Below, in pieces: positions 9,562 through 11,430 of a DNA stretch of 64,000 bases; the stretch's first letter is position 1, and each line of letters opens with the position of its first letter. Below the pieces are notes generated by a model that made no database searches, was not told where the DNA came from, and was given only the letters and a program-made list of their open reading frames with translations. The translations under genes and the position numbers were made by a program. This DNA is from Planctomycetia bacterium (GTDB taxonomy: Bacteria; Planctomycetota; Planctomycetia; Pirellulales; PNKZ01). The stretch is from assembly GCA_021413845.1 (NCBI GenBank), contig JAIOPP010000070.1, forward strand, positions 1 through 64,000, in the 5' to 3' direction.

Positions 9562-9568
9562 AAGGAGG
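9562..9568 (+). promoter_or_regulatory. Strong Shine-Dalgarno AAGGAGG
   Basis: A full AAGGAGG stands 6 nt before the ATG at 9575. It is one of the best ribosome sites in the window and suggests strong translation of the LysM protein. Confidence 0.75.
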
Positions 9569-9574
9569 ACGAAC

Positions 9575-10735
9575 ATGCAGTTCATCAAAACGATTTGTGT
9601 CGTCGTCGTATTAGGGGCCTTAGCCTACGGCGCTTATACCACGCTCACCGGTAAGCCGAAGGTCGAGCCGCCGGTCGAGACGGTCAATTGGGATAGCCCA
9701 CCGCGCATCGAACTTCCCGGCGGCGGCGAGCTGAAGCTGGATAGCAACGTCGCCTTGCCTACGGGGCCCGCAGGAGGCGCGGCACCGAAATACGGTACGT
9801 CGACCGAAGCTTCGGGCACCGCACGCATCGCTCCGGGCGGCCCTCTCACCGGCCCCGCTCTAACACCAACGGCAGCGAATCCACCTGCCGCCGCTCCCGC
9901 CGGAACTGCGGCGGCTGTTGTGCCGGCTTCTTATCCATCGACCAATGCCGTGCCTGGGCCGTTCGACGGTGGTGGAGCGGTGCATTTGGTTTCCGCTCCC
10001 TCTATCTCTGGCGCTGCAACGCCGGCCGCTTCGCACGGCATGCCGAACGCCCTGCAGCCGTCGAGCGCAACGCCGACCCTAACTACTACGAATCCCGCGG
10101 AGTCGATCGCGAAGGGGCAAGCGTTCCTCGCCCAAAACAATTATCTGCAAGCGCTCGATGAGTTCAGCAAGTGCTTCGATCATGCCGCTTTGTCGCCCGA
10201 AGATGCGCGCCGCGTGCAAGAGTTGCTCGATCAATTGGCGGGCACAGTTATCTATTCCCGCGAGCATCTGATCGAGCCGGCTTACGTCGTCGCTCAAGGA
10301 GAATCGCTGCAAGCGATCGCCGAAAAACATCAAGTGCCGATGGGATTGTTGGCGAAGATCAACGGCATCACCGATCCGTTGTATTTACCGGCCGGCACCC
10401 AATTGAAAATGGTCAAAGGACCGTTCGACGCCGTGGTCGATAAAGGTCATCAACGTCTTTCGTTGTTCGTCGACGGTATGTATGCGGGGAGCTTTCCGGC
10501 CGGCGTTGCTCAGGACCTGCCCGAAGGAAATTGCGTCGTCGATAAGGTCGCCAAGAACGCCGTCGCCCCGTCCGGAGCGAGTAGCCCTGCGATTAGTTTG
10601 AGCGGCGGCATCGTGATGGCCGGCACGAACGAAGTAGGAGCACCCGGGAGCGGTCTCGTCGCGCTTTCCGCGCGCGATGCCGACGATCTATGCGATATTC
10701 TTTCCGTCGGCTCGAAGGTCGTAGTCCGAAAGTAG
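9575..10735 (+). CDS. Membrane-anchored LysM protein with degenerate L,D-transpeptidase (YkuD) domain
   Basis: A 386-residue envelope protein: N-terminal membrane anchor (4-20), a long Pro/Ala/Thr linker (30-170), a short helical TPR-like segment (175-225), a LysM domain (about 236-280, VVAQGESLQAIAEKHQV...) that should bind peptidoglycan, and a YkuD-like domain (282-386). The YkuD frame is clear: RLSLFVDGMYAGSFPAGV at its start and LSARDADDLCDILSVGSKVVV at its end. The catalytic residues are gone: the HGT motif reads AGT (349-351), and the SxGCIRL motif reads GLVAL, with no Cys, His or Arg. It is probably a non-catalytic peptidoglycan-binding or scaffold protein. It is followed by pyrE. Confidence 0.75.
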   Translation: MQFIKTICVVVVLGALAYGAYTTLTGKPKVEPPVETVNWDSPPRIELPGGGELKLDSNVALPTGPAGGAAPKYGTSTEASGTARIAPGGPLTGPALTPTAANPPAAAPAGTAAAVVPASYPSTNAVPGPFDGGGAVHLVSAPSISGAATPAASHGMPNALQPSSATPTLTTTNPAESIAKGQAFLAQNNYLQALDEFSKCFDHAALSPEDARRVQELLDQLAGTVIYSREHLIEPAYVVAQGESLQAIAEKHQVPMGLLAKINGITDPLYLPAGTQLKMVKGPFDAVVDKGHQRLSLFVDGMYAGSFPAGVAQDLPEGNCVVDKVAKNAVAPSGASSPAISLSGGIVMAGTNEVGAPGSGLVALSARDADDLCDILSVGSKVVVRK

Positions 10736-10866
10736 TTGGCGGCGAACGTGTGAGATCGCGTCGGCGCGATCGTTCGCACTCCGCCCGCTAGTCGAAATTC
10801 GACCGCGCTGTTATACCGGTGCATCGTCGTTTTTCGGCCCCTCGACCTCAGCCCCCGGCCACAGCC

Positions 10867-11430
10867 ATGTACGACCGCTCCGCGCTCCACGCTCTCATCG
10901 AAACCAAAGCTCTCAAGCGAGGCGATTTCACGCTCGCGTCCGGCAAGAAGTCGAGCTACTTCCTGAATTGCAAGCAGGTCACGCTCGATGCGCAAGGGGC
11001 GAAGCTGATCGGCGAAGGGATCTTGGAGATGCTCGTCGGCGATGGGCCGCTTCCGGTGGCGGTCGGTGGGATGGCGATCGGCGCCGATCCGATCACCGCG
11101 TCGGTCGTCGTGGTCGCCGGTTATCAAAACCTGCCGATGCTCGGCTTCCTAGTTCGCAAAGAGACGAAGGATCACGGCGCGACGGCGAATAAGTTCATCG
11201 AAGGCCCGGTCGCAGCCGGCGACGAAGTCGTGATCGTCGAAGACGTCGTCACGACCGGCGGCTCGTCGATCTTGGCGATCGATCGTTGTCTCGCGTATGG
11301 CCTTAAGGTGCGCGGCGTGATCGCGATCGTCGATCGCATGGAAGGGGGCACCGAAGCCTTCGCAGCGCGAGGGTATTGGTGCAAGAGCTTGTTTACCATT
11401 CGCGACTTCGGGATCGAGCCGCCGAAATAG
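10867..11430 (+). CDS. pyrE: Orotate phosphoribosyltransferase
   Basis: It transfers the ribose-phosphate of PRPP to orotate, the fifth step of UMP synthesis. The PRPP-binding motif VVIVEDVVTTGGSS lies near residues 120-133, and the Lys-rich loop LVRKETKDHG near 95-104. The 187-residue length fits. I chose ATG 10867 (MYDRSALHALI), because the frame upstream to 10819 is Pro/Arg-rich and unlike the family. No other pyrimidine gene is nearby. Confidence 0.88.
   Translation: MYDRSALHALIETKALKRGDFTLASGKKSSYFLNCKQVTLDAQGAKLIGEGILEMLVGDGPLPVAVGGMAIGADPITASVVVVAGYQNLPMLGFLVRKETKDHGATANKFIEGPVAAGDEVVIVEDVVTTGGSSILAIDRCLAYGLKVRGVIAIVDRMEGGTEAFAARGYWCKSLFTIRDFGIEPPK

Follow-up and report, generated by a model that had tools for sequence, protein, structure and literature searches.

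A planctomycete LysM-YkuD protein without catalytic residues as a candidate envelope-binding pseudoenzyme

Introduction

What use does a bacterium make of a wall enzyme whose active site has been lost? The question is raised by a gene in the window, the whole 64,000-nucleotide stretch of a Planctomycetia genome analysed here, which encodes a LysM protein (P0001) ending in a domain of the YkuD type. It touches on the long-disputed peptidoglycan (PG) of such planctomycetes, for which sections of PMC4432640 report PG sugars and DAP in Rhodopirellula baltica and sections of PMC8567305 describe the PG-synthesis genes as missing from most of the old Planctomycetales, with reference to van Teeseling 2015, Mahajan 2020 and Wiegand 2020. 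Because PG chemistry is reported in R. baltica, missing canonical genes may not mean missing PG. Planctomyces is classed in a part of PMC8406291 as being without class A PBPs, and in Planctopirus limnophila, according to parts of PMC10632474, mraY1, mraY2, rodA, pbp2 and murJ are among the singly deletable genes, their deletion making no significant difference to the growth curves.

Neither YkuD domains nor LysM-YkuD proteins are new, and the loss of PG genes from planctomycetes is already known. An order-wide family of dead LysM-YkuD proteins was not found described in the open-licence PMC literature, as judged by titles and the beginnings of abstracts, and an earlier description elsewhere is possible. 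In their main texts, PMC10632474 contains neither 'LysM' nor 'YkuD', PMC8567305 no 'LysM' and PMC4432640 no 'transpeptid'.

Results

Domain layout of P0001

The P0001 gene (9575..10735; this and all features below lie on the + strand) is an open reading frame of 386 aa plus stop, and a ribosome-binding-like site, AAGGAGG (9562..9568), lies 6 nt upstream of its ATG. Hydropathy (1.9 over 19 aa) marks a hydrophobic N-terminal helix at about aa 4-24 (9584..9646), which is probably an inner-membrane anchor, or possibly a cleaved signal peptide. A similar hydrophobic stretch occurs within the first 58 aa of 39 out of 84 relatives of at least 300 aa, a count made with a crude choice of start codons. 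The helix is followed by a linker rich in A, P, G and T at about aa 25-174 (9647..10096), recognised from the composition of aa 29-174, and by a helical segment at about aa 175-232 (10097..10270), in which the structure models predict three helices (approximately aa 176-225). The LysM domain comes next (aa 237-278; 10283..10408) and matches Pfam PF01476 with E 7e-9 and 35.9 bits, above the curated cut-off of 20.9.

The C-terminal part (aa 282-386; 10418..10732) was assigned by Pfam, models and alignment to a YkuD-fold domain without catalytic residues. The Pfam YkuD profile (PF03734) scores 13.0 bits on aa 286-384, under its cut-off of 23.4, and gives no match at E<=1 against the whole window genome; NCBIfam matches to P0001 are weak and far under cut-off. 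The domain includes YAGSF (aa 303-307; 10481..10495), which corresponds to a YAGxF-like element of the order and in which A304 and G305 do not vary across all 91 aligned order rows.

Loss of the active site and retention of the fold

Alignment with Cys-bearing relatives placed Ala349 (10619..10621) in the catalytic His column, Leu361 (10655..10657) in the catalytic Cys column and Ala363 (10661..10663) in the conserved Arg column. This bears out the initial annotation, which had read AGT in place of the YkuD HGT motif and GLVAL in place of SxGCIRL, with His, Cys and Arg all missing. The two remaining cysteines of the domain, C320 and C373, were considered as relocated catalytic residues and ruled out, since both columns are mostly Phe or Tyr in relatives. 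A hidden frameshift was ruled out as well because the two other forward frames of 10500-10740 carry stops and no YkuD motif. Sequencing error is unlikely since the three other genomes of the window's genus are also without the Cys, their residues in that column being Tyr, Met and Tyr. The window genome is alone among the four in having also lost the His, which its three sisters retain.

AlphaFold modelling of aa 175-386 with 79 homologues gave pLDDT 93.2 and pTM 0.88, and Foldseek of the model against the PDB returned Bacillus subtilis YkuD as the top match (E 2.3e-10). VIA-align superposed the two with Z 16.1-16.3 and rmsd 1.8-1.9, the alignment at Z 16.1 and rmsd 1.8 covering 102 residues. 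Because this model could have copied its fold from active homologues, a second one was built from the window protein plus 69 Cys-less rows only, and it reached pLDDT 92.8, pTM 0.87 and Z 16.1 to B. subtilis YkuD. When the P0001 sequence alone was compared with the PDB, matches were weak and fell mostly within the LysM part. A profile of twelve family members aligned with B. subtilis YkuD across both LysM and YkuD (E 1.3e-16); under its motif B. subtilis YkuD reads HGTN...SKGCIRM, and the catalytic columns of P0001 read A/L/A. Within the limits of modelling, P0001 keeps the YkuD fold. The proposal that P0001 is a pseudoenzyme is supported, with His, Cys and Arg gone, the fold kept and purifying selection acting in relatives.

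Distribution and repeated loss across the order

With its own genome counted, 93 of the 97 genomes contain a P0001 homologue, and the family is order-wide, the order being probably Pirellulales. In the phylum sample the family profile matched 367 of 393 genomes, including 40 of 40 order members. Catalytic states were read in 91 of the 93 homologues, the contig-end rows L112 and L071 being left out and L094 and L099 included. The Cys is kept in 23 of these 91 rows and the His in 52; all three of His, Cys and Arg are kept in 17, and none of the three in 35. Since 29 rows have His without Cys and none has Cys without His, the alignment suggests that the Cys was apparently lost first and the His later. 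The survey thus contradicts the view of P0001 as a single oddity, and the motif has been lost repeatedly across the whole order. Among the best 80 of 199 relatives, which are the closest to the query and overlap the 97-genome set, 10 rows hold the Cys, P0001 being counted among the 80; the cultured relative Bythopirellula polymerisocia (L192) is Cys-less.

Thirty outgroup rows were chosen from the listed matches in other families and classes, and the His is present in all 30 of them and the Cys in 28. In the outgroup rows L215 (G406) and L217 (G194), from class-mates outside the order, the Cys is replaced by Thr and Ser, respectively, with His and Arg retained; Cys loss is therefore not confined to the order.

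The gene tree comprised 130 rows and 209 columns, with the motif columns omitted. The minimum number of Cys changes was 11 over the 130 rows (10 on a quick tree) and 8 among the 91 order rows, counts in which loss and gain are indistinguishable and which stand on a partly weak backbone with 24 of 127 inner branches open. Over 200 of 1000 bootstrap trees the 130-row count ranged from 8 to 12. The loss in the window's genus is well placed because its four members (L001-L004), all Cys-less, share a starred 5-row clade (100/96) with the Cys-bearing L005. By this clade, P0001 shares descent with Cys-bearing YkuD members.

A YkuD match over cut-off was obtained in 50 of the 97 genomes, and in 48 of the 50 it fell at the LysM-YkuD locus, coordinates being read by eye. 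In the remaining two, G081 and G091, the match is an unrelated Cys-bearing YkuD-type protein. Profile A3, made of 24 Cys-bearing planctomycete YkuD domains, matched in 90 of 97 genomes, always at the LysM-YkuD locus (coordinates again read by eye), and in the window genome matched P0001 only, with no second YkuD domain. Since the Pfam and A3 matches fall at this locus in all but G081 and G091, P0001 would be, as far as detected by these profiles, the sole YkuD domain of the window organism, and its counterparts those of most of the sampled order. The unrelated proteins of the two exceptions (L250, G091:C47; L251, G081:C208) belong to the YkuD family and read FAHL...PTAGC, and the LysM-YkuD proteins of the same genomes are dead.

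Eight genomes, all of family code f15, have a second, weaker match to P0001. One of these (L252, G077:C1:3995300-3997600) is by eye a paralogue with helix, linker and LysM-like part, a YkuD-like part that is even more degenerate, and a C-terminal extension.

Selection on the dead domains

Selection was estimated as Nei-Gojobori dN/dS in relatives, the window protein being without a partner close enough; the pairs were picked for closeness and some share a member. For the YkuD part dN/dS was 0.04-0.17 in 15 of 16 Cys-less pairs, the 16th being saturated, and 0.01-0.12 in 4 Cys-bearing pairs; single values are rough because dS exceeds 1 in several pairs. The helical/LysM part gave 0.03-0.24 where computable. 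In some pairs the constraint is looser at the short motif loop, with dN/dS up to 0.43.

Whether or not a row of the order has the Cys, G282, F284, A304 and G305 do not vary. A304 and G305 stand at 100% in the 23 Cys-bearing and the 68 Cys-less rows; among the 30 outgroup rows, 77% have Val at position 304 and 50% have Lys at 305. I375 is present in 100% and S380 in 99% of the Cys-less rows. The domain has no near-invariant Ser other than S380, which Cys-bearing members conserve to the same degree. Judged by these alignments, the non-catalytic residues A304, G305 and S380 outlast the active site, and the YkuD domain is constrained by something besides catalysis.

Wall-synthesis genes and gene neighbourhood

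PBP transpeptidase, GT51, SEDS, MraY and MurG were all without a match over cut-off in the window genome (G000, 99.6% complete) and in the three other genomes of its genus. The best MraY match of the window genome reached 70.7 bits, where the cut-off is 192, and the best MurG match was a 25.6-bit fragment. As a control, each wall family was found over cut-off in 9 or 10 of 14 control genomes (GT51 in 10 of 14). Of the 97 genomes, 29 contain both PBP transpeptidase and SEDS, and neither of the two occurs in any other; MraY exceeded its cut-off in 25 (89 at E<=0.001) and MurG in 14 (62 at E<=0.001), and GT51 was found in none. One SEDS gene (G047:C212:21264-22277) contains one in-frame TGA, which may mark the beginning of gene loss or be an error.

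Among the 68 genomes without SEDS, 66 keep LysM-YkuD, as do 27 of the 29 that have SEDS. In the phylum sample SEDS was found in 345 of 393 genomes; the 48 without it are, judged from the matches listed, 35 of the 40 in the order and all 13 of family codes f22 and f23, which we take to be, probably, Gemmatales and Isosphaerales. LysM-YkuD is present in 40 of 40 order genomes of this sample and absent from 13 of 13 f22 and f23 genomes, so after the loss of SEDS these families dropped the protein and the order kept it.

Wall loss as the driver of active-site loss was considered and found unsupported. The 91 rows divide into 51 without SEDS and Cys, 17 with SEDS and without Cys, 14 without SEDS and with Cys, and 9 with both (Fisher p 0.28); the Cys is thus present in 14 of 65 SEDS-less rows and gone from 17 of 26 SEDS-bearing ones. 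Independent comparisons of Cys with SEDS amounted to 5 starred pairs, a number unable to reach significance. For His against SEDS the Fisher test gave p 0.06, with uninformative independent pairs. Since Cys loss and SEDS absence are unassociated, the new role is probably not simply a result of wall loss.

A pyrE-like gene (10819-11430) lies on the same strand 3' of P0001, and pyrE follows immediately in 28 of the 66 loci whose downstream flank is long enough. RarA is upstream in 5 of 55 loci, and the other recurrent neighbour clusters are, by eye, antisense shadows or unrelated enzymes. Inspection by eye of the 14 neighbour clusters that recur most turned up no peptidoglycan gene, and no envelope-related operon partner was seen among the recurrent neighbours. 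An operon partner was therefore discarded as a clue to function, as pyrE, RarA and the others say nothing on the envelope.

Discussion

What is P0001 kept for?

Taken together, we consider it probable, though well short of certain, that P0001 is a maintained non-catalytic envelope-binding or tethering protein which descends from a planctomycete LysM L,D-transpeptidase that was catalytically active. In the window's order the YkuD domain would have been turned to binding without catalysis. Anchorage in the inner membrane would come from the N-terminal helix, given the topology predicted from hydropathy, and the linker, long and flexible, would reach across part of the periplasm. LysM and the catalysis-free YkuD fold could then hold an envelope polymer or a partner, P0001 acting as tether or scaffold and not as cross-linker, with the conserved GPF, YAGxF and IL..GS.V residues as the putative binding face. 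Helix, linker, LysM and catalysis-free YkuD suggest in combination that the tether or scaffold would lie between the inner membrane and an envelope polymer.

What that polymer is can be answered in two ways. Tentatively, the former L,D-transpeptidase may be a structural adaptor that links the inner membrane with a polymer replacing PG in the envelope, either another glycan or the protein wall, in planctomycetes without PG polymerases; we hold this possible and would not call it probable. It is rather unlikely that a sparse or unusual peptidoglycan is instead made by unrecognised enzymes and bound by P0001 through LysM and the dead YkuD groove. In favour of such residual PG are the PG sugars and DAP that sections of PMC4432640 report from R. 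baltica and other planctomycetes, the PG gene deletions of Planctopirus limnophila without growth difference, for which parts of PMC10632474 propose divergent synthesis, and the LysM domain retained in P0001 itself. It is opposed by the description of PG genes as missing from most Planctomycetales in parts of PMC8567305. Against it also stands that the window genome and its three congeners have no match over cut-off to SEDS, PBP transpeptidase, GT51, MraY or MurG. The initial annotation had P0001 binding peptidoglycan through LysM, and the window organism may not make the canonical polymer.

A role in regulating or scaffolding an active peptidoglycan enzyme, be it an L,D-transpeptidase or another, which is the function suggested by the initial annotation, is improbable. 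It is common for pseudoenzymes to regulate active relatives, 26 of the 91 rows have SEDS and PBP, and G081 and G091 carry a second, Cys-bearing YkuD-family protein beside their dead LysM-YkuD. This role nevertheless misfits the window genome, in which no candidate partner was detected, neither another YkuD nor a wall polymerase over cut-off, and the absence of a recognised peptidoglycan gene from the 14 most recurrent neighbour clusters also counts against it. The suggestion is thus unsupported for the window genome.

That P0001 is a decaying relic of an enzyme left jobless by wall loss is highly improbable. Its active site is indeed the most degraded of the four in its genus (A/L/A, with His kept in the three sisters), its motif loop is shorter, and the 13 sampled f22 and f23 genomes are without both SEDS and LysM-YkuD. 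However, the low dN/dS of 15 Cys-less pairs of relatives (0.04-0.17), the intact frame of P0001, the invariant non-catalytic residues and the presence of LysM-YkuD in 66 of 68 SEDS-less genomes all argue against decay. Catalysis by other residues, such as Ser for Cys, is hardly credible: 28 of 91 rows do have Ser where the Cys would be, 18 of them with His, but the His is gone in the other 10, P0001 has Leu for Cys and Ala for His, and S380, the only near-invariant Ser, is no less conserved where the Cys is present. A sequencing or assembly error, conceivable for a window from one draft assembly of 167 contigs, is negligible given the open frame, the other forward frames without motif, the three Cys-less sister genomes with two different residues and the order-wide loss.

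The family descends from a wall cross-linking enzyme, occurs throughout the order and stays under selection with its active site gone, often in genomes without recognised wall enzymes; it makes the PG dispute testable through the ligand of LysM and YkuD. The family also presents a change from enzyme to non-enzyme that occurred several times inside one order, with living intermediates present. If a replacement polymer is indeed what it holds, P0001 would offer a molecular handle on the replacement of PG in free-living bacteria.

Comparison with known systems

Bd1075 of Bdellovibrio, Csd6 of H. pylori and Pgp2 of C. jejuni differ from P0001 in domain architecture and are trimming enzymes with catalytic activity. 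Their structures (7o21, 4xzz and 6xj7, respectively) have the YkuD fold in common with the P0001 model at Z 11.7-13.8. B. subtilis YkuD (PDB 1y7m, 4a1i, 2mtz) has LysM followed by YkuD as in P0001, but reads HGT...SKGCIRM where P0001 reads AGT...GSGLVAL. Unlike it, P0001 has an added hydrophobic N-terminal helix, a long linker, a helical segment and the YAGxF element of its order. The Cys-bearing orthologues L005/G006, L010/G042, L014/G024 and L025/G073 from the same family and order share the domain order of P0001 and the invariant A-G of YAGxF, and they retain the His and Cys that P0001 does not.
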